Shown here one piece after another: positions 19,510-49,325 of a DNA stretch of 64,000 nt; the first letter of the stretch is position 1; each line of letters starts with the position of its first letter. Position numbers and translations under genes: made by a program. Source of the stretch: a virus. Below the pieces are notes generated by a model. That model searched no databases. It was not told where the DNA came from and saw nothing but the letters and a program-made list of their open reading frames with translations. The stretch covers positions 1-64,000 of the IMG/VR virus record IMGVR_UViG_3300037502_000580; one strand, written 5' to 3'.

Positions 19510-19550
19510 TGGCTCTCAGCACGGGCTACCGGCCCGAGACGGTTTAGGGT

Positions 19551-20679: not shown

Positions 20680-20680
20680 T

Positions 20681-22510: not shown

Positions 22511-22519
22511 CTGCTCTCT

Positions 22520-23126: not shown

Positions 23127-23128
23127 GC

Positions 23129-25674: not shown

Positions 25675-25930
25675 GTTTAAGCATCGCTTCCTTGAGTCGT
25701 GTCCGTTCAACATCTTGGTAGTACTCTCGTATCGCCCAAGACACAAATTTAGATTCCAATTTCGTAAGTGCCATTTTTGATATGTCTGATCCGTTAGTGG
25801 ATAACACTCTCCTGCGTATAAAGAACTCAGGCAGGCGACCACTCTCATACAACACCCGTAGCTCACCACAAAACAGACTATCTGGCAAGTAGCTAAAGGC
25901 TTTTAGTAAAAATTTGACCGGCATTATCAA
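25496..25930 (-). CDS. Hypothetical protein, possible frameshifted 3' end
   Basis: 144 codons from a TTG behind GGAGG; ATG starts exist at 25924 and 25774. The part MALTKLESKFVSWAIREYYQDVERTR (split here for length: residues about 53-80) looks like a real helical protein. After about SEAPPLEKFPTT the frame becomes poor (GRKKASPEVLCKPGKAK) while the +1 frame becomes good. No family recognised. Confidence 0.55.
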   Translation of the reverse strand: MIMPVKFLLKAFSYLPDSLFCGELRVLYESGRLPEFFIRRRVLSTNGSDISKMALTKLESKFVSWAIREYYQDVERTRLKEAMLKHAITGNSEAPPLEKFPTTYAPLGPYDGQMGLALQDAGRKKASPEVLCKPGKAKTDKGYL

Positions 25931-25960
25931 GTGATCGCCTCCATACTGTTAGGTTGAGGT

Positions 25961-26170
25961 TTACGCCAGCTTGCGGGGCCGCCCCGGCTTGCGCTTAGCG
26001 GGTTTGGCTGGACTTGTCACGTTGTGACGGGCTAATACGTGGGCGAACTCGTCTTTAGTTACAGGTTGCCATGCTGTTGCCTTGTTAGCTGTACGCACCT
26101 GGGTCTCAAGCCCATCGGCGTAGCGGCATAGCGCCTCAATAATGATCTCGTATCGCGTCTTTTCATTCAT
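25961..26170 (-). CDS. Small protein ending in an AT-hook
   Basis: 69 residues. A helical N-terminus (MNEKTRYEIIIEALCRYADG) is followed by a C-terminal KRKPGRPRKLA, a classic AT-hook that inserts GRP into the minor groove of AT-rich DNA. It may organise or silence DNA. A dispersed palindrome (26016-26028) is in its coding sequence, reading RHNVT. It lies downstream of a terminator and a weak promoter-like element. Confidence 0.7.
   Translation of the reverse strand: MNEKTRYEIIIEALCRYADGLETQVRTANKATAWQPVTKDEFAHVLARHNVTSPAKPAKRKPGRPRKLA
26016..26028. promoter_or_regulatory. Palindrome 2, GTCAC-GTT-GTGAC
   Basis: Inside the AT-hook gene. Confidence 0.7.
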
Positions 26171-26225
26171 CTTTTTATCCTCTCAGGGAACTGGTTTCAG
26201 GTGTTCATCGCAAAATTTACGCACG

Positions 26226-26251
26226 AAAAAAATCCCAGCGTATAGCTGGGA
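26226..26251 (-). terminator. Leftward intrinsic terminator
   Basis: CCCAGC (26234-26239) pairs with GCTGGG (26245-26250); read leftward a run of seven T follows. It closes the transcript carrying the VRR-NUC gene. A weak promoter-like element overlaps it. Confidence 0.8.
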
Positions 26252-26274
26252 CTGGGCAGTTTCTGAAAAGTTCC
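26247..26274 (-). promoter_or_regulatory. Promoter-like element E (weak)
   Basis: Leftward GGAACTT (26268-26274), 15-base spacer, GTCCCA (26247-26252). It abuts palindrome 3 exactly as element C abuts palindrome 17. The -10-like part overlaps the terminator stem, so transcripts from here would begin inside the hairpin and escape it. It would serve the AT-hook gene. Confidence 0.4.
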
Positions 26275-26287
26275 GTCACATTGTGAC
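26275..26287. promoter_or_regulatory. Palindrome 3, GTCAC-ATT-GTGAC
   Basis: Intergenic, touching the -35-like box of element E. Confidence 0.75.
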
Positions 26288-26388
26288 GATTAGGCGAATA
26301 AAAATAGGTGTGGGGTCAACTCTCTGGAGACACGGAAAATGATCTAACCGTAAAAGGAAAGCCCCCCACTGCGGGTGTTGTTCGCATG

Positions 26389-26703
26389 TCAACACGTCAC
26401 CTCCCGCTGGACGCCACCGCTATCAATTCTGTCCAACAACTCAATAAGGTTTGTTATGTCCTCCCGCACGACGAGAGCCTCGCCCCCGGCATTACGAATA
26501 TCCTGTAAATGTTTATCCTGCAGGGCTGTAGTTTGCCCCTTACCTGCTTTGCACTCAATACCTACAAACCTACCCTTGTAGCAAACCAAGATGTCGGGGA
26601 CGCCTGCATTGCCAAACCCACCAGCAACCGGCATGGCATAGTAAGCGCCCCGCTCCTTGAGAAGTTTAGTTACTCGGGCTTTGACTTTCGCTTCTGGGGT
26701 CAA
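26389..26703 (-). CDS. VRR-NUC nuclease
   Basis: 104 residues from a TTG at 26703 (MTPEAKVKARV), chosen because GGAG lies nine bases upstream and homologues begin there; another TTG at 26718 is possible. MPVAGGFGNAGVPDILVCYKG ... FVGIECKAGKGQTTALQ carries the G-(V)-PD-x(n)-E-x-K active site of VRR-NUC, a PD-(D/E)XK family that includes small phage Holliday-junction or flap nucleases. It overlaps the end of the upstream 319-residue gene. Confidence 0.85.
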   Translation of the reverse strand: MTPEAKVKARVTKLLKERGAYYAMPVAGGFGNAGVPDILVCYKGRFVGIECKAGKGQTTALQDKHLQDIRNAGGEALVVREDITNLIELLDRIDSGGVQREVTC

Positions 26704-27625
26704 CGAAGTTATCTCCAATCAGCACATACGCATTACACATAGTGCCTTGAATCATACCGACACCCGGAACGCTCATGTCTCTGCTTGTCGTGGGTACTAT
26801 ATCTAAGACAGCCATGGAGCCAAGAATATCCGCAGGGAGATTACTTTTCCCGATAACCTTGTCGAACAAATAGTCTTTGCTACCGTTTGTCACAATGTGA
26901 CGAACAACTGTGAACTTCTCACCAGGAGACTCGACAACGAGAACGCTGTGCTTCATAAGTTCTGCACGCGCAGCCTTGGCTTCGTCTATCTTGGCAAAGG
27001 CTTCTTCAAAGCAACGCTTGATAGACTTACCCTCAACCGTCTCGATGCCATCACCCCCACACAAAAGGCTACGCATGACCCGAGTCTGCGTCTCAGCGTT
27101 CATGTAATACAACTTACGCACGAGATTGTCTATCTCACTCTCGCTCTTAGTGAACTCCGAACTCTTGTCGATGAATGTACTCGCATTACTCTTTAAGTAC
27201 TCAGCCAGTGAGGACTGTGCTGTCGGTCGAAGCGCGTGAACATACTTATGTATAGCGTTCCGATCCAGCGTACGCCTGACATTGAACGGACGACGGGTCT
27301 GCACATCGTAGTCAAACCGAATCTGCAACTGTGGTTTTTTCCTCTCGCTACCATCGGGCCTGTGAATACAGAAGCCACCAACATCTTTGTACTCACTGAA
27401 GATAACGACATCGCTGATGCGTCGCCGGTCTGAATCAAAATTAACACGATCAAAACTGACACGCACAAAGAACTCATCATTCTTGGGGTGGGTAAGCAAT
27501 GCCTCCATACCCGTACGCATCAACATGTTCTCCTCTGACACATCAAGGTCTGGACGCCCAAAGATAGCCCTCACGGTCTGGATAGTAATGGGGCAAATCA
27601 TTTCCTGCTCGGCTGCTTGTCGCAT
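26666..27625 (-). CDS. Hypothetical protein of the MoxR/VWA module
   Basis: 319 residues, mixed alpha/beta, no recognised enzymatic motif (DVVIFSEYKDVGGFCIHR; VRKLYYMNAETQTRVMRS). The ATG lies inside a one-mismatch copy of the dispersed palindrome (27619-27631) just after GGAG. A perfect copy (26889-26901) lies in its coding part as RHIVT. Position after three genes of the ATPase/VWA module suggests a shared role; unknown. Confidence 0.7.
   Translation of the reverse strand: MRQAAEQEMICPITIQTVRAIFGRPDLDVSEENMLMRTGMEALLTHPKNDEFFVRVSFDRVNFDSDRRRISDVVIFSEYKDVGGFCIHRPDGSERKKPQLQIRFDYDVQTRRPFNVRRTLDRNAIHKYVHALRPTAQSSLAEYLKSNASTFIDKSSEFTKSESEIDNLVRKLYYMNAETQTRVMRSLLCGGDGIETVEGKSIKRCFEEAFAKIDEAKAARAELMKHSVLVVESPGEKFTVVRHIVTNGSKDYLFDKVIGKSNLPADILGSMAVLDIVPTTSRDMSVPGVGMIQGTMCNAYVLIGDNFVDPRSESQSPSN
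26889..26901. promoter_or_regulatory. Palindrome 4, GTCAC-AAT-GTGAC
   Basis: Inside the 319-residue gene. Confidence 0.7.
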
Positions 27626-27636
27626 TGTGACACTCC

Positions 27637-28533
27637 TTAGAATGAAAACTTGTTGATGATGTCGTTGACACGGGCATGCACATCAGTGCGAACCAGCACA
27701 GACTCACGAAGATCTTTAGCCGTGATGCCTAGCATGGCCTGCTCCAACTCTCGGCGTGCCTCCTCCAGTCGTGGGTCGTTCGCAATGTTTAGCGAAGACA
27801 GGAGCGCACACATCTCCTGCGTGTTGGTAACGAGCGAGTCACGGAATACTTTCTTCTCCCCACCATCATCAACAGCCAAACGCTCAGAAAGATGTTTAAG
27901 GGTGGTGTGCAGTCTGTCCCACACATCCTGCATCGCCTCCTGCATCTTGGCCTGGAAGTGCGTCTCGTACTGCGCGGTCAACTCTGCCTGCATCTCGTTG
28001 CTCACATCAACACGGAAGTCACCGGACGACGGCAGTGGGTAGTAGTTCACATTGAAGTAGAACTTGCGATCCACCTCGGACTGCGTTGGGTACTCGTCTG
28101 CGTTAAACATGTCACCGAGTTCAAAGGCAACCGCAGACTTTAGCGTCGGGTAGACTGTCACAAAGTGACGCTTCAAGTCGTGCAGTTCGGTTAACTTCTC
28201 ATTGGCTATCGTCACATAGTTCAGATAGTTCTTCATTGGCAGAAGACGGATGCCGCTATCCAGCCAGGGTATAGTCTGCGTGTAGTGCCAATTACGAAAC
28301 GCGCCGACTGCCTTCTTCAGGTCGTCATGCTCTTTGACCCCAGGCAATAAGTTCTTACTGTAATTACCAGCACGGCTCTTGGCGTTCTTGTTCTGCGCCA
28401 CCTCCTCAGACACAGCGCGGTCAGTCTTACGGGCCTGCCAGAACCCGATGTTGAGTTCGACAAGCATTGATTGGTTAATCATTGCGGTTACGTTGCTTGG
28501 GTTCAAGCTCATGTTTGTTTGCGTGGTTTGCAT
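27637..28533 (-). CDS. DUF3150-like protein of the MoxR/VWA module (tentative)
   Basis: 298 residues, predominantly helical. Features: VELNIGFWQARKTDRAVSEE near the N-terminus, YFNVNYYPLPSSGDFRVDV in the middle, and a helical C-terminal half. Similar proteins accompany phage CobS/MoxR-like ATPases and I recall them as DUF3150; this is from memory. It may be a substrate or adaptor of the ATPase. Confidence 0.65.
   Translation of the reverse strand: MQTTQTNMSLNPSNVTAMINQSMLVELNIGFWQARKTDRAVSEEVAQNKNAKSRAGNYSKNLLPGVKEHDDLKKAVGAFRNWHYTQTIPWLDSGIRLLPMKNYLNYVTIANEKLTELHDLKRHFVTVYPTLKSAVAFELGDMFNADEYPTQSEVDRKFYFNVNYYPLPSSGDFRVDVSNEMQAELTAQYETHFQAKMQEAMQDVWDRLHTTLKHLSERLAVDDGGEKKVFRDSLVTNTQEMCALLSSLNIANDPRLEEARRELEQAMLGITAKDLRESVLVRTDVHARVNDIINKFSF
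28157..28169. promoter_or_regulatory. Palindrome 5, GTCAC-AAA-GTGAC
   Basis: Inside the 298-residue gene; reads RHFVT. Confidence 0.7.
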
Positions 28534-28547
28534 GGTTCTCTCCAGAG

Positions 28548-29768
28548 TTAAAGTTTGATTACCTTGCCGGGGAAGTTCCCGACCCTACCTTTACTGCTAA
28601 TCACCCAGACCGTAGGCGGCATGCCGCTCCAGTCACCTACATCACCAACCTCTCCATCAGTAAAGATGACCAAAGCCTGACTTGTCACTTTGTGACAGAG
28701 CATGTACTCCCTAACGCAACCAACTGTCGTGCCTCCACCTCCTTCCGGTTTAGTAGACTGCGGGATGCTGTCTATCTGATCTTGCGTATAGATCTCGTGC
28801 TTGCACACTGTCGTGTCCCAATACAGCAGATGAATCTTCTCGGGCTGCACTATCTTGCAGATGCCCACCAACTCAGAGAGGAACTCGATAAGTTCAGACT
28901 GCCCGATAGATCCTGACATGTCAGTGGCAATCGTTATCGACTCCATCGACTCCGAGATCGATGTTGGCATGTACATGTCCTGAGACACGAACCTTCTGTT
29001 AGGACGCCGCCATGACGAGTCACTGCGTGCGGCACATGTTGAGATCATGAATTCCCTAAGAAGTTCATACGGGTTAAGTTTAGGTTCCAACAAGTCAGCG
29101 AAGTCTCGTTGTCCACCCGAGCCAGCCTCTCCCTTCTTCTTAAGTAAGATCTCGCCTTGCCGGAGCGCCTGATCAATCTTGCGCTCAACTTCCTTGCGCT
29201 CCTCTTCATTCCAAGACTCTGCACTTTGCCAATCGTGTTCATCAAACCCTCCGCTGTTATCGCCATCACCGTCGTCACCATCATCGCCGTCGTCGCCGTC
29301 GTCGTCGCCGTCATCTTCATCTTGTTCCTGCATTAAGATGTCAAAGACTTGTCGGGCATCCATACCCTCAAACCGCTTGTCCATGCACCCATTCGCAGGC
29401 ATCTGGGCAACTTCTCCATACGGGTCGTACTTAGTGATCTGCAGGTTGATGACATGATCGCAGGCGGCATTGGCGATCTTGGGGTTCTGCTCGTAGAGGT
29501 TGCGCCACACCAGCATATGTTTGTAGGCCTTGTGCCAATTCTCATGCAGCACCAGGAAGTTCAACTCTTTGTCGGTCAGACTTGTCACAAAGTGACGCCC
29601 GTACTGAGTGTTCAGCCCGTCAGTCCGTGCTGTCATCTTGGGGTTGTCCACGACCTCGGTCTTGCCAGAGACAAGAATCCCCGACATAAGAATAAACTTC
29701 TTATGCGCCATGAGCGTCACATGCGCTCTGTGCAGGCGTTGTTCAGCCGTTAGTTTTGAAAGATCCAT
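28548..29768 (-). CDS. VWA-like protein with zinc-metallopeptidase-like N-terminus
   Basis: 406 residues. The N-terminal domain has HENWH (residues 75-79), an HExxH zinc motif, in LVLHENWHKAYKHM, as in DUF2201-type putative metallopeptidases. Residues about 150-175 are an acidic Asp/Gly linker. The C-terminal VWA-like domain has the metal-adhesion motif DMSGS at 283-287. Such proteins pair with MoxR-type AAA+ ATPases, here encoded two genes upstream, in the manner of CobT with CobS. Whether the zinc site is catalytic is unknown. Two palindromes lie inside the gene. Confidence 0.85.
   Translation of the reverse strand: MDLSKLTAEQRLHRAHVTLMAHKKFILMSGILVSGKTEVVDNPKMTARTDGLNTQYGRHFVTSLTDKELNFLVLHENWHKAYKHMLVWRNLYEQNPKIANAACDHVINLQITKYDPYGEVAQMPANGCMDKRFEGMDARQVFDILMQEQDEDDGDDDGDDGDDGDDGDGDNSGGFDEHDWQSAESWNEEERKEVERKIDQALRQGEILLKKKGEAGSGGQRDFADLLEPKLNPYELLREFMISTCAARSDSSWRRPNRRFVSQDMYMPTSISESMESITIATDMSGSIGQSELIEFLSELVGICKIVQPEKIHLLYWDTTVCKHEIYTQDQIDSIPQSTKPEGGGGTTVGCVREYMLCHKVTSQALVIFTDGEVGDVGDWSGMPPTVWVISSKGRVGNFPGKVIKL
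28684..28696. promoter_or_regulatory. Palindrome 6, GTCAC-TTT-GTGAC
   Basis: Inside the VWA gene; reads CHKVT. Confidence 0.7.
29584..29596. promoter_or_regulatory. Palindrome 7, GTCAC-AAA-GTGAC
   Basis: Inside the VWA gene, 12 residues before the HExxH motif; reads RHFVT. Confidence 0.7.
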
Positions 29769-29782
29769 CTGTATCTCCTCAA

Positions 29783-30175
29783 TTAATTAACACGAAGTAT
29801 CGTGATCTCAGTTCTGTCTGCATTGAATTCAGTCAGGTAGTTCTTAGACCCAAACAATCTACGACCCGAATTGCACACGACCGAACGCATAGTGTCTGGG
29901 TGGTACTTGCATGGGATAGTCGCTGTCTGCCCAGGCTCAAGCGGGGCGATGTACTCATTAACATACTCAGACGGCTCACCCCTCTTTGCTTCAGGGTTGC
30001 GGGTTGCGACACGCGCAGGCTTCTCCTTCTTTTTCTTCTGCGGTTCGATGACCCCATCGGGGTCATGCACGATAACTTCTCCGTCAGCCAGCACGACTTT
30101 GAACGAGGCTCCGCTGTTGCGTAGGAAGGCGAGTTGCGTCTCGGTTGCTTTACGAACGATGCTTGTGATTGCCAT
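29783..30175 (-). CDS. Hypothetical protein between the MoxR and VWA genes
   Basis: 130 residues. A beta-rich N-terminus (FKVVLADGEVIVHDPDG), a basic linker (QKKKKEKPARVATRN) and a C-terminal part with two Cys (ATIPCKYH...SVVCNSGRRLFG). It ends in EITILRVN. The position suggests a module accessory protein; no family recognised. Confidence 0.65.
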   Translation of the reverse strand: MAITSIVRKATETQLAFLRNSGASFKVVLADGEVIVHDPDGVIEPQKKKKEKPARVATRNPEAKRGEPSEYVNEYIAPLEPGQTATIPCKYHPDTMRSVVCNSGRRLFGSKNYLTEFNADRTEITILRVN

Positions 30176-30195
30176 GACTGTATCTCCTCAATTAG

Positions 30196-31266
30196 TTAGC
30201 GTGCTTTGGCAAAGATGTAGTTATTGCGTGTGGCCCAGTCAATGAATGACGCATGGCCTGCCGCCTTGGCGTTGTCAGACTCAAGTAGTGAACGCGCAAA
30301 TACGCCTTGGTTCTCTTTGGGTAGACGCTCAAGGTAGATCATCCAGCGTTCGATGTTCTCGCGCTTAACATGTAAGACAGCCTTGTAGGTCATGATGCAG
30401 TTCGCCACGGGGTCACTCGGTATGCTTATGCCATGCGGGTCAGCGAGAATAGAATCGAAGGTCGGCATCTTGTCATCCAGGTTGATGAACGCATGCAGAG
30501 ACCGCGCACCAGACTCGCCAATCGAACCGATCAAGGCTGCAAGCATTGGCTCATCACCGATTAACTTGCGCTTCTTCACGATGTTGGATGCCTTCTCAAA
30601 CGAACGCGGAGAACAGAAGGCTGTCTGGACTTCTTTAGGGTTGAAGATGTACTGGTTCTTGGCCTGGCTGGGGTCAAGATAGGAAGCCATGGTCTCGGGG
30701 TACTGATCAACGAACGCGATAACTTGTTCTGTCACGTTGTGACGGATCGCCCACTTGATCCACTCTTCAGCCGTGGGCTTACGGAAATTGACCACAGCCA
30801 TACGGTTCTGGGCGTGCGCTTTGAGATGATCGCCTACGCCATCCTGCGACAGATTGCCCGTGGCAAAACGCAAAGACCCCTCGGGTAAGTAAGTGTCACC
30901 GATGCGCCCCTCAAGTAAGAGAGGCAATAACATGTTCTGCACAGACTGCGATGCTTTGGTCAGCTCGTCCAGCATAAGAATGACGGGCCTGCCCGTGTGC
31001 AGTTTGAAGTGTGCGTTTGGATAATATCGCGTGCAGTTCAACTCTCTGTCGATGAACGGCATTGCAATGTCGCCCAGGTCAAGGTTCGCGCAGTCGATGT
31101 ACGCTACCTCGTGATCGGGGAATAACTTAGCAAGATCTTTGAGCATGGATGACTTGCCAACACCAGGCTCGCCACGGAAAAGAATCGTGTCGGTCTGGCC
31201 CAGGTTTGCCACCATGGCAACGGCTTGCTCGTGATTTACGGAAGTTCCAAATGTGATAGTACCCAT
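30196..31266 (-). CDS. MoxR/CobS-like AAA+ ATPase
   Basis: 356 residues. Walker A GEPGVGKS at 32-39, Walker B VILMLDEL with D100/E101, and sensor-1 FATGNLSQDG near residue 137 define a MoxR-type AAA+ ATPase. It probably remodels a target recruited by the VWA protein encoded downstream. In phages these pairs are often called cobaltochelatase subunits, but nothing here indicates cobalamin metabolism. The leader is about 170 bases and contains palindrome 9 and an AAAAC repeat tract; promoter A lies upstream. Confidence 0.9.
   Translation of the reverse strand: MGTITFGTSVNHEQAVAMVANLGQTDTILFRGEPGVGKSSMLKDLAKLFPDHEVAYIDCANLDLGDIAMPFIDRELNCTRYYPNAHFKLHTGRPVILMLDELTKASQSVQNMLLPLLLEGRIGDTYLPEGSLRFATGNLSQDGVGDHLKAHAQNRMAVVNFRKPTAEEWIKWAIRHNVTEQVIAFVDQYPETMASYLDPSQAKNQYIFNPKEVQTAFCSPRSFEKASNIVKKRKLIGDEPMLAALIGSIGESGARSLHAFINLDDKMPTFDSILADPHGISIPSDPVANCIMTYKAVLHVKRENIERWMIYLERLPKENQGVFARSLLESDNAKAAGHASFIDWATRNNYIFAKAR
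30731..30743. promoter_or_regulatory. Palindrome 8, GTCAC-GTT-GTGAC
   Basis: Inside the MoxR gene; reads RHNVT. Confidence 0.7.
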
Positions 31267-31310
31267 GATGCGTAATGCTCCTTAAGATGTTAGAAAGATA
31301 AAACACAGGA

Positions 31311-31347
31311 ATAAAAAATAAAAACAAAAACAAAACAAAACAAAACA
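31311..31347. repeat. AAAAC short tandem repeat in the MoxR leader
   Basis: A/C tract with four to five near-perfect AAAAC units, i.e. TTTTG units in the leftward transcript. It could vary in length by slippage. No coding role. Confidence 0.6.
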
Positions 31348-31372
31348 ACTACATCTACCGCCTACATCTGCC

Positions 31373-31385
31373 GTCACAATGTGAC
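31373..31385. promoter_or_regulatory. Palindrome 9, GTCAC-AAT-GTGAC
   Basis: In the MoxR leader, 52 bases downstream of the -10-like box of promoter A. Confidence 0.8.
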
Positions 31386-31437
31386 AGCCCCAGCCATACA
31401 TCAACAACTTAATAGACAAATCTATAACCTACCCTTA

Positions 31438-31466
31438 TTGGACAAGAAAAGCCGAACAAAAGTTCC
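31438..31466 (-). promoter_or_regulatory. Promoter A, ECF/sigma-E-like
   Basis: Leftward GGAACTT (31460-31466), 16-base spacer, GTCCAA (31438-31443), then TAAGGGTAGG, shared with promoters B and C. It would drive the MoxR/VWA operon. A 16-bp palindrome (31472-31487) lies just upstream. Confidence 0.65.
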
Positions 31467-31471
31467 CTACC

Positions 31472-31487
31472 CCTGAAATGTTTCAGG
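31472..31487. repeat. Perfect 16-bp palindrome CCTGAAATGTTTCAGG
   Basis: Seven-base arms around TG, overlapping the stop codon of the small gene at 31483 and five bases upstream of the promoter A -35-like box. It could be a local operator or a weak hairpin. Confidence 0.5.
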
Positions 31488-31662
31488 TTACATTCAGGAA
31501 GTCTTGACCGAACCATCCACTGCTCCCATCGGCAAAGGCGATCTTGTAGTAGATGTTGTTGCCGAACCATTCCCACTCGACTACTAGTCCGGCATCATCA
31601 ATGCCACGCACATCTACGACCTCGCCCACATTAAACATCTGCCCGATGTCACTTTGTGACAC
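31483..31662 (-). CDS. Small beta-rich protein, unknown
   Basis: 59 residues from a GTG at 31662, five bases after AGGAGG; the GTG at 31668 overlaps the ribosome site and is unlikely. The sequence (VGEVVDVRGIDDAGLVVEW; YYKIAFADGSSGWFGQDF) looks like an SH3-type barrel. Palindrome 10 covers codons 2-6. Confidence 0.65.
   Translation of the reverse strand: MSQSDIGQMFNVGEVVDVRGIDDAGLVVEWEWFGNNIYYKIAFADGSSGWFGQDFLNVT
31648..31660. promoter_or_regulatory. Palindrome 10, GTCAC-TTT-GTGAC
   Basis: Lies immediately after the GTG start of the 31483 gene; reads SQSD. A bound protein or an RNA hairpin here would block initiation. Confidence 0.75.
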
Positions 31663-31671
31663 GCTCACCTC

Positions 31672-31818
31672 CTAATAAGAAAGCATCATCAGAATCATGT
31701 AGGCCAGGAACGCAGCAAAGGCAAGACCAAGAACGCCTAAGAAGTCAAGGAACACTGCCCTAAATTCCTTTGCCCGACGAATACGCCTACGCCTTTCGAT
31801 TGAGTTGATTGAAGTCAT
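31672..31818 (-). CDS. Small single-pass membrane protein
   Basis: 48 residues, MTSINSIERRRRIRRAKEF then a transmembrane helix (FLDFLGVLGLAFAAFLAYM). GGGGAG precedes the start. The stop lies inside the ribosome site of the next gene, a coupled arrangement. The basic N-terminus predicts an inside orientation. Confidence 0.65.
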   Translation of the reverse strand: MTSINSIERRRRIRRAKEFRAVFLDFLGVLGLAFAAFLAYMILMMLSY

Positions 31819-32027
31819 ACATCTCCCCCTTTTTCTCCGCGTGAATAGATCGTGTCCATCGTCTCTGCTACGAACGACAGGGCAATGCGCTTCTCAGTGC
31901 CACTACGAAACGCCGCCACAGCCAGCACGAACGCTAGTGCTGGTATCACTTGATCGATATGGTGACCATTGAGCGCCTCATCTATCTGCATGAGTAGGCG
32001 CTTGTACTTCTTATCGTCTATTTCCAT
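31815..32027 (-). CDS. Hypothetical protein
   Basis: 70 residues from MEIDDKKYKRLLMQIDEAL at 32027, seven bases after GGAGG. Residues about 27-45 are hydrophobic (VIPALAFVLAVAAF) but the profile is that of a helical soluble protein. Overlaps the next start by four bases. Confidence 0.65.
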   Translation of the reverse strand: MEIDDKKYKRLLMQIDEALNGHHIDQVIPALAFVLAVAAFRSGTEKRIALSFVAETMDTIYSRGEKGGDV

Positions 32028-32031
32028 TTCC

Positions 32032-32334
32032 CTACCTCCATGTCCTATGCGTCTCCGCAACATGCTCCATCCCGTCGTACTCCTCGACGAACCACTCCAC
32101 GCCATCCGGCACAGAGAGAACCTTCAACTCGGCGTAGTTACCATTGGCCCTATCGCCTAACTCCTCAACGACTGCCACCAGATCGGCATCGTCGCGGGGC
32201 AGGAAATACTCCAGGGTCGCCTTGGCCTCATCGTTGTCCTCGTAGTTCTCACCCTTGCGAATCGCTAACATCTTTATGGCAAGGTCAGACAGTCCGAACC
32301 CGCCATAGCATCTATTAACCACGACTTTCTGCAT
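32032..32334 (-). CDS. Conserved-looking phage protein, unknown
   Basis: 100 residues from MQKVVVNRCYGGFGLSDLA at 32334. The features NRCYGGFGLSD, RDDADLVAVVEELG, LKVLSVPDGVEWFVEEYDG and HVAETHRTW are a pattern I have seen in small proteins of many phages. It is likely a single-domain alpha/beta protein with no known role. Confidence 0.75.
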   Translation of the reverse strand: MQKVVVNRCYGGFGLSDLAIKMLAIRKGENYEDNDEAKATLEYFLPRDDADLVAVVEELGDRANGNYAELKVLSVPDGVEWFVEEYDGMEHVAETHRTWR

Positions 32335-32335
32335 C

Positions 32336-32419
32336 TCAAATCCCCCACACATTTAAAAGAATCAGCCCACCGCACACGGTCAGCACTAGGAAATAAAAAA
32401 TAAAGATCATCTGTCCCAT
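32336..32419 (-). CDS. 27-residue membrane peptide
   Basis: MGQMIFIFYFLVLTVCGGLI...: almost entirely one transmembrane helix, starting six bases after AGGAG. The stop overlaps the ribosome site of the next gene. It is short, so confidence rests on the ribosome site and composition. Confidence 0.5.
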   Translation of the reverse strand: MGQMIFIFYFLVLTVCGGLILLNVWGI

Positions 32420-32429
32420 CTCGTTCTCC

Positions 32430-32741
32430 TTATGGTCTACCATCAGCGCCAACCCAACCCATGCCGACATAGTCGCTAGGGTCTTCGTAGTTCTCAACCA
32501 TGTCCATGTGGTCAGCGATTGTCCACACGGGCTTCTGCTTGCCGTCGAACCCGAACGCTCTCCACTTGTACAACGCGAACGGCACACATGACTTATGCTC
32601 TCCTCCTTTCATGGCATTAATCAATCGCCAATTCCAATGATCTGTTACTCGGTTGGAATGGTTGTATGCCCATGTCCATGGTTGTGGTCGTTTGCATGTC
32701 CACGGCTGTGGGCGCTTGCTGTATCTTTCCGCTCTGTTCAT
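32430..32741 (-). CDS. Hypothetical protein with internal duplication
   Basis: 103 residues from MNRAERYSKRPQPWTCKRPQ; the unit KRPQPWT occurs twice in a row. The C-terminus (DHMDMVENYEDPSDYVGMGWV) is acidic and aromatic. Its start overlaps the upstream TGA. Function unknown. Confidence 0.6.
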   Translation of the reverse strand: MNRAERYSKRPQPWTCKRPQPWTWAYNHSNRVTDHWNWRLINAMKGGEHKSCVPFALYKWRAFGFDGKQKPVWTIADHMDMVENYEDPSDYVGMGWVGADGRP

Positions 32742-32742
32742 C

Positions 32743-33000
32743 TCACACCGCCTTTCCGTCACTTTGTGACACCTCACGAAGCCTCTGAACCAAGGCCACC
32801 AAACTCTCATCTATGCAGTCGTCATCACCGAACGCGCCCATGTCACCGTCGAACAAGGCAAGGAACTCGGCACACTCACCGCTAACTTCTTCAGCCGTGG
32901 CCTGCAGTATCTGCTCATCGCGGTTGTCGTCCTGAACCAGCAACGCAAGGGCATACGCCCGCTCTAACATCTCAATCAATCTATCCATACTCTCGTCCAT
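32743..33000 (-). CDS. Acidic helical protein, unknown
   Basis: 85 residues, strongly acidic (LALFDGDMGAFGDDDCIDES). Palindrome 11 is near its 3' end, reading SQSD. It starts two bases after the previous stop. Confidence 0.65.
   Translation of the reverse strand: MDESMDRLIEMLERAYALALLVQDDNRDEQILQATAEEVSGECAEFLALFDGDMGAFGDDDCIDESLVALVQRLREVSQSDGKAV
32758..32770. promoter_or_regulatory. Palindrome 11, GTCAC-TTT-GTGAC
   Basis: At the 3' end of the acidic protein gene, just upstream of the 32430-32741 start. Confidence 0.7.
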
Positions 33001-33001
33001 C

Positions 33002-33292
33002 TCACACCCCCTCGTTGACTAAACCGCCTTTGTTGTTGATGCCCACTGCCGCCTCGCGTGCGAAGGCAGAAGTGAAGTACATCGCCCCTTGTTTGTGTGG
33101 TGTTAAAACACACCATAACTTCCTATCCTGTCTTGCCTGCTCCTCGCCACACTCAAGGCACACGCGCTTGCCAATCTGCCACCGGGCGAACTCAATGTAG
33201 TCACCGCACATGCGGCACTGCGGATCATTGAAGTCGCGGGTTTCTGGTTGCTGATGTGTGTGGTGTTGTTGGTACTGCGTTTTGGTTTGCAT
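33002..33292 (-). CDS. Zinc-ribbon protein
   Basis: 96 residues from the ATG at 33292 (GGAG six bases upstream; the ATG at 33298 abuts the GGAG). CRMCGDYIEFARWQIGKRVCLECG gives two CxxC pairs 17 residues apart, a zinc ribbon, followed by YFTSAFAREAAVGIN. First gene after promoter B; possibly a small transcription or host-takeover factor. Confidence 0.7.
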   Translation of the reverse strand: MQTKTQYQQHHTHQQPETRDFNDPQCRMCGDYIEFARWQIGKRVCLECGEEQARQDRKLWCVLTPHKQGAMYFTSAFAREAAVGINNKGGLVNEGV

Positions 33293-33315
33293 GCTCATCT
33301 CCAGGTTTGCGGGGT

Positions 33316-33328
33316 GTCACATTGTGAC
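33316..33328. promoter_or_regulatory. Palindrome 12, GTCAC-ATT-GTGAC
   Basis: Between promoter B and the zinc-ribbon gene, 51 bases downstream of the -10-like box. Confidence 0.8.
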
Positions 33329-33379
33329 GACCCCAGGGGTTAAAGAAAAATCAAACACAAAAACTTATCCCTACCCTTA

Positions 33380-33408
33380 TTGGACAACGAAACCTGATGA
33401 TAAGTTCC
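33380..33408 (-). promoter_or_regulatory. Promoter B, ECF/sigma-E-like
   Basis: Leftward GGAACTT (33402-33408), 16-base spacer, GTCCAA (33380-33385), then TAAGGGTAGG. The spacer is nearly identical to that of promoter C. It drives the zinc-ribbon gene and those downstream. Confidence 0.7.
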
Positions 33409-33424
33409 CTAAAGCTGAATTAAA

Positions 33425-33808
33425 TCAAGGACTTACACGACTACCCACCCTCCTCTTTTTCTCCTCATCAAACAACACCCCGCTGAGCGCCTCGACCACC
33501 AGCATCCCCGTGGCTATGCCCATCGAATACCTACCATGCCCACGCCCTGCGGCATGCAGTCCTCGGTTGATAACTTCTCCTAAATTAAACTGCCGTACCA
33601 TCTGCCCTACCGACTCCCCCTGCTCATCGAACTCCAGCCGTGCTATCTGTAAGTTGGGGTTGCACAGCCCGTACTCTTTGACCACACCCGCCAGCACATA
33701 GAACGCCTGCGCTTCGTACTCATAGGTGTCAAGTTGTTGTCGTAGCAGGGTTATTTGTTGTTGCAGTTGGTTTATTTGGTTTATCAGGTCTGCTCGTTCG
33801 TCTTTCAT
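33425..33808 (-). CDS. Coiled-coil protein, unknown
   Basis: 127 residues. Residues 1-35 form a Gln/Leu coiled coil (LINQINQLQQQITLLRQQL); the rest (YVLAGVVKEYGLCNPNLQI; HAAGRGHGRYSMGIATGM) is compact. It overlaps the HNH-like gene by four bases. Confidence 0.7.
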   Translation of the reverse strand: MKDERADLINQINQLQQQITLLRQQLDTYEYEAQAFYVLAGVVKEYGLCNPNLQIARLEFDEQGESVGQMVRQFNLGEVINRGLHAAGRGHGRYSMGIATGMLVVEALSGVLFDEEKKRRVGSRVSP

Positions 33809-34548
33809 TTTCTCCCCCGTATCGCACTGGCGATTAACTCGTCTAGTTTTACCCTCAATAACTCAGCCACCACGGCATCGGCTAACTCATCTTCCTTGAC
33901 CTCCACGGTTCGCAGTGTCTTCATCTCGTCTTTGACTGTCTTCACCTCATCCTTTAGTGCCCTGAGTTCCAGCTTTAGTTCCTTGATGTTGTCGAGAATC
34001 TGCTGACCCAGGCTGATCTTGGGGGCTATGTTGTTTGGGTTAGTTGCGTGGGTTGCGCCAGGGGTTGCGTTGCCCGTTGCGCCGGGGGTTGCGTGTTCTT
34101 GATTCAGTGGATCCTGCTCTAACTTCTCATTGACTCGCCTGTTGTGCTTGGTGCGCGGCCCCTCGGATAGTTGGCAGTGGGCGGGGTTCACACACAAGGG
34201 GTTGCGGCATACCCGTGTGATGCGCCCAAGGGTTGCGGGGTCTTGGTGCAGGAGGGTGTTCAGGCGTTTGAAGATGTAAGAGTGCGCGGGGTAATTCATG
34301 TACCGGGCGGAGCCTTGGTTCTTGTCGGTTGCGCCTTGCCATTCCCAGCAGGGGAGGCCTTTGGTTTGGGGGGTGAGTTTGGCGGCAAGGGCCAGCTTCA
34401 CGGGGTCTGTCACGATGTGACAGTTCTGCCGAACCCAGGCGAGGAACTCGCTCTTTTGGGGGTCTGATAATGGTTGATCATCGCGTAGGGGAATTCCGGC
34501 ACGGTCGATGAATTTGGGGTGTGGGGTGGTTTGGGGGACGAAACGCAT
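33805..34548 (-). CDS. HNH-like endonuclease with C-terminal coiled coil
   Basis: 247 residues. GLPCWEWQGATDKNQGSARY ... AHSYIFKRL ... RVCRNPLCVNPAHC is the pattern of HNH_3-type homing endonucleases (C-x4-CVNPxH). A low-complexity Ala/Thr/Pro/Gly/Asn stretch (residues about 150-170) precedes a long charged coiled coil (ELKLELRALKDEVKTVKDEM), unusual for free-standing HNH enzymes. It may be a mobile nuclease or a derived DNA-binding protein. Element F lies just upstream; palindrome 13 is in the N-terminal codons. Confidence 0.75.
   Translation of the reverse strand: MRFVPQTTPHPKFIDRAGIPLRDDQPLSDPQKSEFLAWVRQNCHIVTDPVKLALAAKLTPQTKGLPCWEWQGATDKNQGSARYMNYPAHSYIFKRLNTLLHQDPATLGRITRVCRNPLCVNPAHCQLSEGPRTKHNRRVNEKLEQDPLNQEHATPGATGNATPGATHATNPNNIAPKISLGQQILDNIKELKLELRALKDEVKTVKDEMKTLRTVEVKEDELADAVVAELLRVKLDELIASAIRGRK
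34409..34421. promoter_or_regulatory. Palindrome 13, GTCAC-GAT-GTGAC
   Basis: Inside the HNH-like gene; reads CHIVT. Confidence 0.7.
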
Positions 34549-34581
34549 GGGGTGGACTCCGTGAGTGTGGGGGGAAAAGGG

Positions 34582-34609
34582 TTCGACAGGGGAGGCGTGG
34601 GGAAGTTCC
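34582..34609 (-). promoter_or_regulatory. Promoter-like element F
   Basis: Leftward GGAACTT (34603-34609), 15-base spacer, GTCGAA (34582-34587), 34 bases upstream of the HNH-like start. A GTTTACA palindrome ends seven bases upstream of the -35-like box. Spacing differs by one from promoters A-D, so it is less certain. Confidence 0.5.
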
Positions 34610-34615
34610 AGCGTG

Positions 34616-34632
34616 GTTTACAGATTGTAAAC
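34616..34632. promoter_or_regulatory. Second-type palindrome, GTTTACA-GAT-TGTAAAC
   Basis: Seven-base arms with three central bases. The only other copy is at 34791-34807. It sits just upstream of element F, a normal operator position. Confidence 0.7.
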
Positions 34633-34671
34633 GATAGGGTAAATGGGGTGGGTGTTGTAATTTTGCGTCAT

Positions 34672-34921
34672 AAATTTCTTTAATTTACTTATATATTACT
34701 AATTTGTTTGAGCTGAACATTATTATATTACCTTTTTTCTAAATTTCCGAGGAAAATCATGCGCGGAGCAAAAAATACCCCTTTTTTACGGTTTACAATC
34801 TGTAAACCAACGAAACGACATTTTTGGGAACGCCAAAACTGCCGGAAAAAAAGAAAAAAGGTAATATAATAGTAGTGTAGTAGTAGTAGTATAGTAATAT
34901 ATAAGTAAATTAATGAAATTT
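34672..34921. repeat. Concentric nested inverted repeat, AT rich
   Basis: Outer arms 34672-34700 and 34893-34921 match in 28 of 29 positions as inverted copies; inner arms 34721-34749 and 34843-34871 match in 26 of 29. Both pairs and the palindrome at 34791-34807 share a centre within three bases (about 34796-34799). A TAG trinucleotide run lies between the right arms. Possible uses: replication origin, cruciform, or a decayed MITE-like insertion. Confidence 0.85.
34791..34807. promoter_or_regulatory. Second-type palindrome, GTTTACA-ATC-TGTAAAC
   Basis: At the centre of the nested inverted repeat; inverted copy of the site at 34616. Confidence 0.7.
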
Positions 34922-34962
34922 AATATCTCCTAAGCAATGCTTGTGCCAACTTTCGGGGGAGT

Positions 34963-34975
34963 GTCACAAAGTGAC
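34963..34975. promoter_or_regulatory. Palindrome 14, GTCAC-AAA-GTGAC
   Basis: Intergenic, 23 bases before the first 44-bp block. Confidence 0.75.
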
Positions 34976-34998
34976 AAAAAAACTGCTTTTTTGCGGTT

Positions 34999-35042
34999 GA
35001 TGGCGAGAATTCGTGCGATACCAGTTCCCCCTGCAAAGGGCC
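34999..35042. repeat. 44-bp block, copy 1
   Basis: Matches 35866-35909 at 40 of 44 positions. It contains GAATTC and, leftward, GGGGAACTGGTATCG, which resembles the -35 part of the promoters but lacks a convincing -10 partner. Flanked by palindromes 14 and 15. Confidence 0.75.
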
Positions 35043-35075
35043 ATGGATCCCTGCGGGTAAGATGTTCATGGGTGT

Positions 35076-35088
35076 GTCACATTGTGAC
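35076..35088. promoter_or_regulatory. Palindrome 15, GTCAC-ATT-GTGAC
   Basis: Just beyond the T run of the leftward terminator at 35095. Confidence 0.75.
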
Positions 35089-35094
35089 AGGCGC

Positions 35095-35120
35095 AAAAAA
35101 ACCCCAGGTGTTGCCTGGGG
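35095..35120 (-). terminator. Leftward intrinsic terminator
   Basis: CCCCAGG (35102-35108) pairs with CCTGGGG (35114-35120); leftward a seven-T run follows. It ends the transcript of the 192-residue gene. Confidence 0.85.
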
Positions 35121-35139
35121 TGTTAAGGGTTGGGGTTGC

Positions 35140-35718
35140 TTAGACTGCTTCTTTGAGGAGTCCGTCTTCGATTGCCGCTTCTTCGATATCGGGCCACATG
35201 GTCAACAGGTTCTCGACCGCCTGGGGTTCGCACTGCGACAGGTGATTGCGGAGAACACGCAACGCTTCCGCTACTTTGTCATAGGATGTTGTACCCGAAC
35301 CCGTCCCTGGCGCCGCTTCCCTAGGCGTGTACCGATCTAGCCCTAAGATCTCAACGCAGTAGGTCAAGAATCGGCTGTACTGCTCACGCGGATTACCGCC
35401 TGATTCCGAACGCGCCTTGACACGCTCGACGATTGCCGTCTTGATACCCTGGGCGTATTCCTTGTGGGTCTTCGCCTGTTCAGAGTTCTCCGATTTCAGG
35501 AAATCGACCGCACGCTTCGCTTCCTTGACGATTGCCGGATCACGCTTGCTCAGCATCGCGTAGTGGATCCACTCAGACCCGAACAGGTTGATTGCCTCGT
35601 GGGCGGAAGCACGCCACTGCGCCTTGATTGATTCTCTTGCCTGGGACTCGATATCGAGAGCCTGGTCAACGATAGCGGCGAACACTGCGAACTTCTCAAC
35701 GGTTGTTTGAACTTGCAT
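35140..35718 (-). CDS. Early protein, paralogue 1
   Basis: 192 residues from MQVQTTVEKFAVFAAIVDQA at 35718, behind AGGAGATTC. Mostly helical. It is clearly homologous along its whole length to the 36470-37054 gene (shared ARSE-GGNPREQ-SRFL, GTGSGTTSYDKVAEALRVLR, CEPQAVEN, DIEEAA-DGLLKE). It has its own promoter (C), operator pair and terminator, the arrangement of a strongly expressed early gene. No family recognised; a single-stranded DNA-binding or host-shutoff role would only be a guess. Confidence 0.85.
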   Translation of the reverse strand: MQVQTTVEKFAVFAAIVDQALDIESQARESIKAQWRASAHEAINLFGSEWIHYAMLSKRDPAIVKEAKRAVDFLKSENSEQAKTHKEYAQGIKTAIVERVKARSESGGNPREQYSRFLTYCVEILGLDRYTPREAAPGTGSGTTSYDKVAEALRVLRNHLSQCEPQAVENLLTMWPDIEEAAIEDGLLKEAV

Positions 35719-35739
35719 TTTTGAATCTCCTGGTAAGAT

Positions 35740-35752
35740 GTCACAATGTGAC
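35740..35752. promoter_or_regulatory. Palindrome 16, GTCAC-AAT-GTGAC
   Basis: In the leader of paralogue 1, 37 bases downstream of the -10-like box of promoter C. Confidence 0.8.
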
Positions 35753-35789
35753 AGGGTTGGTTTAACATCATTACTGCGTCCTACCCTTA

Positions 35790-35818
35790 TAAGACAATGA
35801 AACCTGGTGATAAGTTCC
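35790..35818 (-). promoter_or_regulatory. Promoter C, ECF/sigma-E-like
   Basis: Leftward GGAACTT (35812-35818), 16-base spacer, GTCTTA (35790-35795), then TAAGGGTAGG. Bracketed by palindromes 16 and 17; the latter touches the -35-like box. Confidence 0.7.
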
Positions 35819-35831
35819 GTCACAGTGTGAC
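35819..35831. promoter_or_regulatory. Palindrome 17, GTCAC-AGT-GTGAC
   Basis: Directly adjacent to the -35-like box of promoter C. Confidence 0.8.
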
Positions 35832-35865
35832 AAGTCCAGGCGCAACTGGCGAGGCATTGCTGGGT

Positions 35866-35909
35866 GATGGCGAGAATTCGTACGATACCAGTTCCCCCCG
35901 CGCAGGGCC
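35866..35909. repeat. 44-bp block, copy 2
   Basis: Second copy of 34999-35042, between palindromes 17 and 18; four substitutions. Confidence 0.75.
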
Positions 35910-35925
35910 GGTGCATGCAGGCAGT

Positions 35926-35938
35926 GTCACATTGTGAC
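35926..35938. promoter_or_regulatory. Palindrome 18, GTCAC-ATT-GTGAC
   Basis: Between the 44-bp block and the terminator at 35963. Confidence 0.75.
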
Positions 35939-35962
35939 GGGTCAGTGCAAGAATTTCGGGCG

Positions 35963-35989
35963 AAAAAAAAACCCGCCGATTGGCGGGTT
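35963..35989 (-). terminator. Leftward intrinsic terminator
   Basis: CCCGCC (35972-35977) pairs with GGCGGG (35982-35987), followed leftward by nine T. It ends the transcript of the 73-residue gene. Confidence 0.85.
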
Positions 35990-36007
35990 ATGTGGAGGGG
36001 GGCGGAC

Positions 36008-36229
36008 CTAGATTTTAAAGAGGGTTCCCCGTCTGAGGTTCCCGTATCTGATCATGATATCGGTAAACCCATCTGCCTTCAGTGCCTCAGTATCGCGGGA
36101 GCTGAGGTATCCGTGAACCTTCATACTCTCGGCCTTGAAATCTTTCCCGGCCTGCCAATCTGCCATGGCTTCCTTCGCGTTTTTGTAGTCACGGCCATAT
36201 GCGGGGGATACAGTTAAAAGGTTAATCAT
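36008..36229 (-). CDS. Hypothetical early protein
   Basis: 73 residues from MINLLTVSPAYGRDYKNAKE at 36229, behind CAGGAGAAAACA. ADWQAGKDFKAESMKVHGYLSS ... ITIR-type ending (DIMIRYGNLRRGTLFKI) suggests a compact alpha/beta protein; no family recognised. It stands before a strong terminator. Confidence 0.75.
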   Translation of the reverse strand: MINLLTVSPAYGRDYKNAKEAMADWQAGKDFKAESMKVHGYLSSRDTEALKADGFTDIMIRYGNLRRGTLFKI

Positions 36230-36254
36230 TGTTTTCTCCTGAGATGTTAAAGGG

Positions 36255-36410
36255 TTAAAACCAAACTTCATCTTGCACACCATCACGGAGGCAGAAGGTC
36301 TCGCATGCGTCTGCAATGACCCCGAGGTTCCCGATGATGGGCAGATGGGCGATGAAATTAAAAAGATATCCGATGGGTGATTTCAGAAATGAAACGATAT
36401 GTTTTTTCAT
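36255..36410 (-). CDS. Small hydrophobic early protein
   Basis: 51 residues, MKKHIVSFLKSPIGYLFNFI then AHLPIIGNLGVIADACETFC. GGAG lies ten bases upstream. The hydrophobic first half could associate with the membrane; two Cys are near the end. Too short for routine calling but well placed between two early genes. Confidence 0.6.
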   Translation of the reverse strand: MKKHIVSFLKSPIGYLFNFIAHLPIIGNLGVIADACETFCLRDGVQDEVWF

Positions 36411-36442
36411 GGCTAAATTCTCCGATTAGGGTTAAGACCCCC

Positions 36443-36455
36443 GTCACGATGTGAC
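36443..36455. promoter_or_regulatory. Palindrome 19, GTCAC-GAT-GTGAC
   Basis: Embedded in a longer perfect dyad, CCCCC-GTCAC-N3-GTGAC-GGGGG (36438-36460), followed leftward by TCTTAA; it may double as a weak terminator after paralogue 2. Confidence 0.75.
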
Positions 36456-36469
36456 GGGGGGAAGGGTTA

Positions 36470-37054
36470 CTACACCGACTCTTTCAGAAGGCCATCAGTC
36501 ACTGCGGCTTCTTCAATGTCTGCCCACATCTCTAGGACATTCTCCACGGCCTGAGGTTCACATTGGGGCAGGTGGTTTCTCAGGACACGCAAGGCCTCTG
36601 CGACTTTATCGTATGAGGTGGTGCCTGAACCTGTGCCGGGGGCTTTGGCCTCTTTCGGCACATAGACATCAGTCAGGCCTGCGGCCTCCACCGCATAGGC
36701 CAGAAACCGACTCCATTGTTCGCGGGGATTTCCGCCATCCTCTGAACGGGCCTTCACGCGATCAGTCACTGCGGCCTTGATGCCTGAGGCATACTCTTTA
36801 ATCGTTTTATAGGTCTCAGAGTTTACGGCCTTTAACTCTGCCACCTTGCGTTTGGCAGTCGCGGCAATGGCCTCATCGCGTTTGGAAAGCATGGCGATGT
36901 GAATCCATTCATTACCGAATAGATCGATGGCCTTGTGTGACATGTCACGCCATGCGGCCTTAATCGCGGCAGAGGCCTCAGACTGAAGGTCAAGGGTAGC
37001 GTCAACAATGGCGCCGAAGGATACTAGCTTTTCGTTTGTCGTTTGTACTTGCAT
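36470..37054 (-). CDS. Early protein, paralogue 2
   Basis: 194 residues from MQVQTTNEKLVSFGAIVDAT at 37054, behind CTGGAGATTT. First gene of the leftward arm. Homologous to the gene at 35140-35718 throughout, with the C-terminal 60 residues nearly identical, including APGTGSGTTSYDKVAEALRV. Its codon use is visibly more GGC/GCC rich than paralogue 1. Function unknown. Confidence 0.85.
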   Translation of the reverse strand: MQVQTTNEKLVSFGAIVDATLDLQSEASAAIKAAWRDMSHKAIDLFGNEWIHIAMLSKRDEAIAATAKRKVAELKAVNSETYKTIKEYASGIKAAVTDRVKARSEDGGNPREQWSRFLAYAVEAAGLTDVYVPKEAKAPGTGSGTTSYDKVAEALRVLRNHLPQCEPQAVENVLEMWADIEEAAVTDGLLKESV

Positions 37055-37073
37055 TTTTAAATCTCCAGAAGGT

Positions 37074-37086
37074 GTCACATCGTGAC
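37074..37086. promoter_or_regulatory. Palindrome 20, GTCAC-ATC-GTGAC
   Basis: In the leader of paralogue 2, 38 bases downstream of the -10-like box of promoter D. Confidence 0.8.
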
Positions 37087-37124
37087 GGGTTAAGGGTTAC
37101 TAAGGTTTTCTGCCCTAGTGACGG

Positions 37125-37153
37125 TTGGACAATGAAAGCCGGGGATTAGTTCC
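37125..37153 (-). promoter_or_regulatory. Promoter D, ECF/sigma-E-like
   Basis: Leftward GGAACTA (37147-37153), 16-base spacer, GTCCAA (37125-37130). The spacer end GGCTTTCATT is shared with promoters A and C in part; the downstream AAGGGTAGG is not conserved here. It would start the whole early arm. Confidence 0.65.
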
Positions 37154-37160
37154 CTGACAT

Positions 37161-37173
37161 GTCACGATGTGAC
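37161..37173. promoter_or_regulatory. Palindrome 21, GTCAC-GAT-GTGAC
   Basis: Seven bases upstream of the promoter D -35-like box; the last copy toward the late arm. Confidence 0.8.
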
Positions 37174-37472
37174 GGGGTACCGGACGGGGGCACCCCCCGC
37201 CAGCGAGGGGGGGATGGAGCCTCATGACATATTAAACCGCACGACCAATCTCAACTTTTTCAAACTCCCCCCTCCCCTATGTTAGTCTTCGCTAACTTAC
37301 CCGTACCCCCCATTTCCCCTAATACCACCCCCTTGTTTTCTGCTGGAGTCCCGGCTCCTTCGGTGCTATATTTTTCTGGGGTAGGTAGTCGGCGCGGCGA
37401 CTCTAAACAGCCCGTAGCTCCTTTGGCTGGGTGCAAATGTAAAAATCCTACCCCCCTACTATTTTTTGTGTT

Positions 37473-37478
37473 TATAAT
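37473..37478 (+). promoter_or_regulatory. -10-like TATAAT before the late arm
   Basis: A perfect TATAAT ends seven bases before the ATG at 37485. No TTGACA-like box is found at the usual distance, and there is no ribosome site before the ATG, so a leaderless transcript is possible. Confidence 0.4.
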
Positions 37479-37484
37479 CCGCGC

Positions 37485-38108
37485 ATGCAACTACTTGAAC
37501 CGGAAGTAGGCGTGGACGTTCCAGAGTCCAACTTTAATTTTCAAGACGTATACGAGAAAGCTCGTATCGCGTGCAATACTGCTTTGGAATTAAACCAACG
37601 TGGTATGCCTATCGAGATCGATAAAGAAGATGAACTCTTTGCTGAGAGGATCATCAAGGAAGAGATCTCAATCCCCACCAACTACAATTTCTCTGCTGGT
37701 ACCGCAGTAAAACTCGGCGCACTGCTGCAAGAGTACGACGTGCAGGTTGCCAAAAGTGCTGCCCAGTTACGTACCGTCTCCACTAACAAACTCATAGAAA
37801 TGCTAGACGACCCAGACCCCAAGGTCAGGCTTAAGGCTATTGAGTTAATCGGCAAGATTGCTGACGTGGGTCTCTTTGCTGAGAGAACCGAGATAACCAT
37901 AAATCACAAGTCAACTATCGAGTTGCAGCAGGAGTTGGCTAAGTTAGTAAGTGACTATGTGGATGTGGAAACCAAGTTAGTAACAAGTGACACGGAGGAA
38001 GAAGAGGAAGAAGATGGGGCACCACGAGAAGAGGAAGAAAGAGAGAGCGCTGGCACGCAAGAAGGAGATGCAGAAGCTGCTAGAGACGAAACTGAGGAAG
38101 ACAAGTGA
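37485..38108 (+). CDS. Putative terminase small subunit
   Basis: 207 residues. Residues about 20-150 are helical (YEKARIACNTALELNQRGM; LRTVSTNKLIEMLDDPDPKVRLKAIELIG split across this region) and the last 45 residues are a Glu/Asp-rich tail. It is first in the late arm and overlaps the large subunit by four bases, the normal position of the DNA-recognition subunit. The name rests on position and shape. Confidence 0.7.
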   Translation: MQLLEPEVGVDVPESNFNFQDVYEKARIACNTALELNQRGMPIEIDKEDELFAERIIKEEISIPTNYNFSAGTAVKLGALLQEYDVQVAKSAAQLRTVSTNKLIEMLDDPDPKVRLKAIELIGKIADVGLFAERTEITINHKSTIELQQELAKLVSDYVDVETKLVTSDTEEEEEEDGAPREEEERESAGTQEGDAEAARDETEEDK

Positions 38109-49324: not shown

Positions 49325-49325
49325 G

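Follow-up and report, generated by a model that had tools for sequence, protein, structure and literature searches.

The minus strand of a 64,000-nucleotide stretch of viral DNA (the window, G000, part of a virus record of 87,451 bases) carries four repeated elements, A to D, whose likeness to ECF/sigma-E-type promoters is well supported by their sequence. Judging from the letters, it is quite probable that these elements and two further sites would be read by a host RpoE/sigma-E-type ECF sigma factor, that the six would serve separate leftward units, and that neighbouring palindromes would act as their shut-off.

Results

The original prediction described four leftward elements with a common two-part core, and GGAACT-N17-GTC is indeed present on the minus strand at 31441-31466, 33383-33408, 35793-35818 and 37128-37153. 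As it also held, the spacer following the seven-base GGAACT(T/A) is exactly 16 in all of A-D, and TAAGGGTAGG is found downstream in three of the four. The exact pattern GGAACT[AT]-N16-GTC[CT][AT]A occurs four times on the minus strand of the window and never on the plus strand, against a chance mean of 0.025 (maximum 1) in 200 first-order Markov sequences. Two candidates absent from that prediction, at 26247-26274 and 34582-34609, likewise lie before leftward genes. All six sites have the -35 element GGAACT(T/A) and, after a spacer of 15 or 16, the -10 element GTC(C/T/G)(A/T/C)A:

37125-37153, minus strand: candidate sigma-E-type promoter D, GGAACTA-N16-GTCCAA, upstream of gene 36470-37078; same element in the relative G001 at 183-211
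35790-35818, minus strand: candidate sigma-E-type promoter C, GGAACTT-N16-GTCTTA, upstream of the gene starting at 35718; also in G001, at 1313-1341
34582-34609, minus strand: additional candidate sigma-E-type promoter, GGAACTT-N15-GTCGAA, 34 bases upstream of the HNH-type endonuclease gene 33805-34548
33380-33408, minus strand: candidate sigma-E-type promoter B, GGAACTT-N16-GTCCAA, upstream of gene 33002-33298; counterparts in G001, G002 and G003
31438-31466, minus strand: candidate sigma-E-type promoter A, GGAACTT-N16-GTCCAA, upstream of the AAA ATPase gene; sigma-E-like element before the orthologue in L009, L011, L013 and L014
30196-31266, minus strand: AAA ATPase (PHROG 1297), the anchor gene for finding relatives
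26247-26274, minus strand: additional candidate sigma-E-type promoter, GGAACTT-N15-GTCCCA, adjoining a palindrome; kept in G001, G002 and G003

The start of the gene behind promoter C is placed at 35718, but longest-ORF calling gives 35140-35916. At the position equivalent to 34582-34609, G002 has GGAACTT-N15-CTCTAA (13824). A pattern match at 19576-19603, together with its orthologues, lies inside a conserved coding stretch (RNS...LVSEVSK) and was not counted as a promoter. The AT-rich gap at 34614-34922 contains nested inverted repeats whose arms measure 31, 29 and 19 bases (the 19-base arm is TGGTTTACAGATTGTAAAC); this may be an origin or a regulatory region.

The leftward arm holds replication genes (a DUF927 protein, an SNF2-type helicase and a family A DNA polymerase), and terminase and portal stand at the start of the rightward arm. 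Intrinsic terminators were located at the following positions:

35970-35989, minus strand: intrinsic terminator separating the promoter D unit from promoter C
35101-35121, minus strand: intrinsic terminator after the gene behind promoter C
26231-26253, minus strand: intrinsic terminator, TCCCAGC-TATAC-GCTGGGA-TTTTTTT

All three terminators are strong, and their positions mean that promoters D and C each precede a terminator-ended unit. At the 26247 candidate the -10 overlaps the terminator stem at 26231-26253; both arms of this stem vary between lineages, and GGAACTT is kept. The end of the virus record (63674-87451) is a diverged second version of 1-24000: in the first 3.1 kb the two are 80% identical in DNA, and identity is lower or absent thereafter. 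Because its last 24 kb duplicates the first in diverged form, the 87-kb record probably combines a single genome of ~63.7 kb with part of a related strain.

The letters and spacing of the elements match those of sigma-E promoters in E. coli MG1655, where the same count gives a spacer of 15 (rpoE GGAACTT-N15-CTCTAA, degP GGAACTT-N15-ATCTGA and rpoH GAACTT-N15-GTCTGA). The alignment of 29 candidate sites from the sigma-E-like lineage has the consensus GGAAC(T/A)(T/A), a spacer of 15 (18 sites) or 16 (11 sites), and (G/C)TC(T/C)(A/T)A; that GGAAC, TC and the final A do not vary is partly due to the search pattern by which the sites were collected, and the preferences at other positions are mostly independent of that pattern. 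The RpoE elements are quoted as GGAACTT and TCAAA (PMC2893595, PMC12153292), and ECF factors require near-consensus promoters (PMC12153292), a demand with which the strict conservation of the phage elements fits. At the level of sequence, the predicted sigma-E-like reading is supported by the E. coli-like letters and spacing, by the location of the elements on one strand and upstream of genes, and by the retention of the core in diverged relatives.

A scan with the AAA ATPase recovered three relatives, 86, 71 and 71% identical, and an alignment scan gave 80 loci, including L013 (70%) and L014 (51%). The relatives at 86, 71, 70 and 51% carry GGAACT(T/A)-N15/16-(G/C)TCNNA before the same gene with a different spacer; the sequence before the AAA gene is GGAACTT-N15-CTCTAA in G002 and GGAACTT-N15-GTCTAA in G004. 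Upstream of this gene the core is kept while the spacer drifts in five lineages. The original prediction had proposed looking for the same 40-bp element in related phages: its two-part core recurs upstream of the same gene, but its spacer differs. In the sigma-E-like lineage, counted as G000, G001, G002, the pieces of G003, and G004, the relaxed pattern matches 28 times, always on the gene strand and never on the opposite one, with ~0.4 expected; about 7 of the 28 are coding or overlapping, which leaves ~21.

No Sigma70_r2 domain (PF04542) was detected with Pfam in G000-G004 even at E 1, and G001 has the sole Sigma70_r4_2 match (PF08281), weak and below cutoff; as G001, G002 and G004 are fragments, the absence of a sigma gene from them is no proof. 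With no sigma factor found by Pfam in these records, some of them fragments, the elements are likely to be read by an ECF sigma factor of the host. It is improbable that the elements are instead read by a phage-encoded factor, whether a diverged sigma or an RNA polymerase of the phage that is brought in with the virion or synthesised early. The spacer and TAAGGGTAGG are kept among copies A-C in both G000 and G001, as in phage polymerase promoters and beyond what a sigma factor needs, and phages phiEco32 and 7-11 encode their own sigma factors (PMC8948821). However, in addition to the missing Sigma70_r2, other lineages keep only the two cores, at a spacing of 15 or 16, and the letters are those of the bacterial sigma-E consensus, from which the promoters of phage 7-11 (GTAAtg-16-aCTA) differ (PMC8948821). 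The search for RNA_pol (PF00940) also returned no phage match, but the control genomes were equally silent.

No relative of the AAA ATPase was found as a prophage in 84,980 genomes. The only terminase relatives among genomes were on six MAG contigs of unrelated taxa, which are most likely mis-binned phage, so no host is assigned from them. In three MAGs tested, the motif was not above its reversed control.

More distant relatives have a near-consensus TTGAC(A)-TATAAT-type promoter at the homologous place before the AAA gene. The 74 sister loci together with six named phages cover 1.3 Mb; in them strict sigma-70 matches number 124 on the gene strand versus 8 on the other, and there is no excess of sigma-E-like sites (3 found, 2 expected); in the sigma-E-like lineage, strict sigma-70 matches are at chance level. 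The occupation of the same place by sigma-70 promoters in distant relatives indicates that the promoter class switched between lineages. The sigma-E-like rows form one clade in the first AAA tree (support 99/99); with more distant sigma-E-like loci added they form two groups, so that multiple origins, or losses, are possible. The match before the AAA gene of L077, a single one in the sigma-70 group, was taken as chance.

It is very unlikely that the elements of the window are themselves ordinary sigma-70 promoters, or overlap them, with the GGAACT likeness being secondary. Copies B and C do contain TTATCA...(T/A)ATAAG, which can be read as a weak sigma-70 site (TTATCA-N16-TATAAG in C), but copy D lacks this arrangement. 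Sigma-70-like sites in 18500-38000 are at chance (17 found vs 18.5 in shuffles), which bears out the earlier description of the elements as unlike sigma-70. The sisters that use sigma-70 show near-consensus TTGACA/TATAAT at this place, and the sigma-E-like clade has no excess of them.

The strict sigma-E pattern matched at least 120 viral-contig stretches, and several of the listed stretches have three to six matches on one strand. The backbones with multiple matches include some with an AAA at ~35% (L179, L188, L135 and L241), some with a portal at ~25% (L192 and L231) and one without detectable relation (L166). Outside the main clade several viral-contig matches fall in coding sequence, and those in L179, L188 and L243 were not counted as promoters; others stand just before genes, for example in L192. 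In MW202796, a named record related to L192, sigma-70 sites occur and the sigma-E-like element is absent. Use of sigma-E-like promoters in the same manner seems to extend to several other uncultivated phages, both closer and less close relatives. In the Alcaligenes phage vB_Af_QDWS535, an isolated phage with a named host, GGAACTT-N15-GTCTAA (L101:48814) is located shortly before gene 48895-49515; the leftward arm of this phage has sigma-70 sites.

The palindrome GTCACNNNGTGAC is present in 21 copies in the window, where 0.08 are expected, and all copies lie within 18071-37173, in the leftward arm. With offsets counted from a start taken to lie 6 bases beyond the -10, the palindrome predicted downstream of each element is centred at about +38/+39 for C and D and +52/+53 for B and A, and the upstream palindromes ascribed to C and D are present as well, centred at -41/-48. 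The copies next to the promoters and a candidate binding protein are:

37161-37173: operator-like palindrome upstream of promoter D, centre about -48
37074-37086: operator-like palindrome downstream of promoter D, about +39
35819-35831: operator-like palindrome adjoining the -35 of promoter C, about -41; equal offset in G001
35740-35752: operator-like palindrome downstream of promoter C, about +38; equal offset in G001
33316-33328: operator-like palindrome downstream of promoter B, about +52; equal offset in G001
31373-31385: operator-like palindrome downstream of promoter A, about +53; equal offset in G001
26275-26287: operator-like palindrome adjoining the -35 of the 26247 promoter, about -40; equal offset in G001
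16296-16568, minus strand: small helix-turn-helix protein, suggested as a candidate palindrome binder

At A, B, C and the 26247 site, the offsets in G000 and G001 agree within one base. Relatives carry palindromes of the same layout in other letters: GTAACA-N-TGTTAC in G004, CTAACA-N-TGTTAG in the sigma-70 sisters and GTTCAG-N-CTGAAC in the Planktothrix phage Pag-Yong1. Positions 1-50000 of Pag-Yong1 (L105) contain 18 dispersed copies of GGTTCAG-N-CTGAACC. Since relatives driven by sigma-70 have the same kind of palindrome, the palindromes are separate from the sigma-E element, and their common layout in both promoter classes suggests that they probably belong to a shared regulator. From their sequence, they are very likely binding sites. 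The lineage conserves the helix-turn-helix protein, and members with a different palindrome also show a different recognition region in this protein; we offer it as a suggestion for the protein that might bind them. Its orthologue was not found in the examined stretches of the sigma-70 sister loci. The adjacent repeated palindromes could also be taken to mean that the conserved block is itself a protein-binding or decoy site devoid of promoter activity, but this is the least probable alternative of all, given that the block lies in a single orientation before gene starts, conserves a two-part form around a variable spacer, and gives way to sigma-70 promoters at the corresponding position of sister phages.

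Discussion

In the explanation we favour, the host RNA polymerase with an RpoE/sigma-E-type ECF sigma factor would read the four elements and the two additional sites. Each promoter would start a separate leftward unit of the replication arm, and some of these units would be bounded by terminators. A phage DNA-binding protein, possibly the helix-turn-helix protein at 16296-16568, would bind the palindromes and shut the units down or block elongation; the palindromes just before the -35 or 38-53 bases past the start would be the operators. The motif, its position and strand bias, the terminators, the conservation in diverged relatives and the sigma-70 equivalent elsewhere can be read directly from the DNA; reading by a host ECF factor, early action and the operator role of the palindromes are what we infer.

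The main sigma factor of the host usually reads phage early genes. We tentatively raise the possibility that several backbones moved early transcription from sigma-70 to a host envelope-stress ECF factor, in which case the replication genes would depend on, or be tuned by, envelope stress, possibly triggered by infection. Published evidence on infection triggering a stress response is mixed: in Pseudomonas aeruginosa, AlgU and SigX were activated by a Pf4 variant, and the lytic phage LUZ19 gave no AlgU/SigX activation within 20 minutes (PMC7693463). No paper on such phage promoters was found in the openly accessible literature searched, which is partial. If true, a lineage (probably several) with an envelope-stress promoter would link the onset of infection to the condition of the host surface, and would present a testable case of promoter-class switching between relatives. 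The repeated, one-strand GGAACTT-N15/16-GTCTAA provides a sequence mark for finding such phages.

The closest named relatives are HTVC023P-type podoviruses and their kin (the Pelagibacter phages HTVC023P and HTVC027P, DSL-LC04 and Pag-Yong1), with terminase at 47-59% and portal at 42-45%. The leftward arm of Pag-Yong1 also has an ATPase and a VWA-like gene, and none of the named kin records scanned (up to 50 kb each) has a repeated sigma-E-like set. A stoperator is an asymmetric site bound by the lysogeny repressor of a temperate phage. The palindromes resemble the stoperators of mycobacteriophage cluster A, described as many dispersed short binding-site copies in transcribed regions (PMC9283540), in that dispersed sites across transcribed regions are found here too. 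In contrast to stoperators, they are palindromic and confined to one arm; the asymmetric site of a temperate phage is not found, nor is an integrase (PF00589) in a Pfam search of records that include fragments. Phages phiEco32 (gp36) and 7-11 (gp47) are similar in having genes under promoters not read by sigma-70, but there a phage-encoded sigma serves later genes and early promoters use host sigma-70 (PMC8948821), whereas no such gene was found in the present phage and its elements have sigma-E-like letters. A close likeness in letters is to the RpoE promoters of E. coli, which share GGAACTT, the 15-16 spacer and (G/C)TCTAA or TCNNA with the phage elements. Compared with the RpoE promoters of Pseudomonadota, the elements described here, whose activity is predicted, are distinguished by their location in a phage, where they apparently drive the replication arm.
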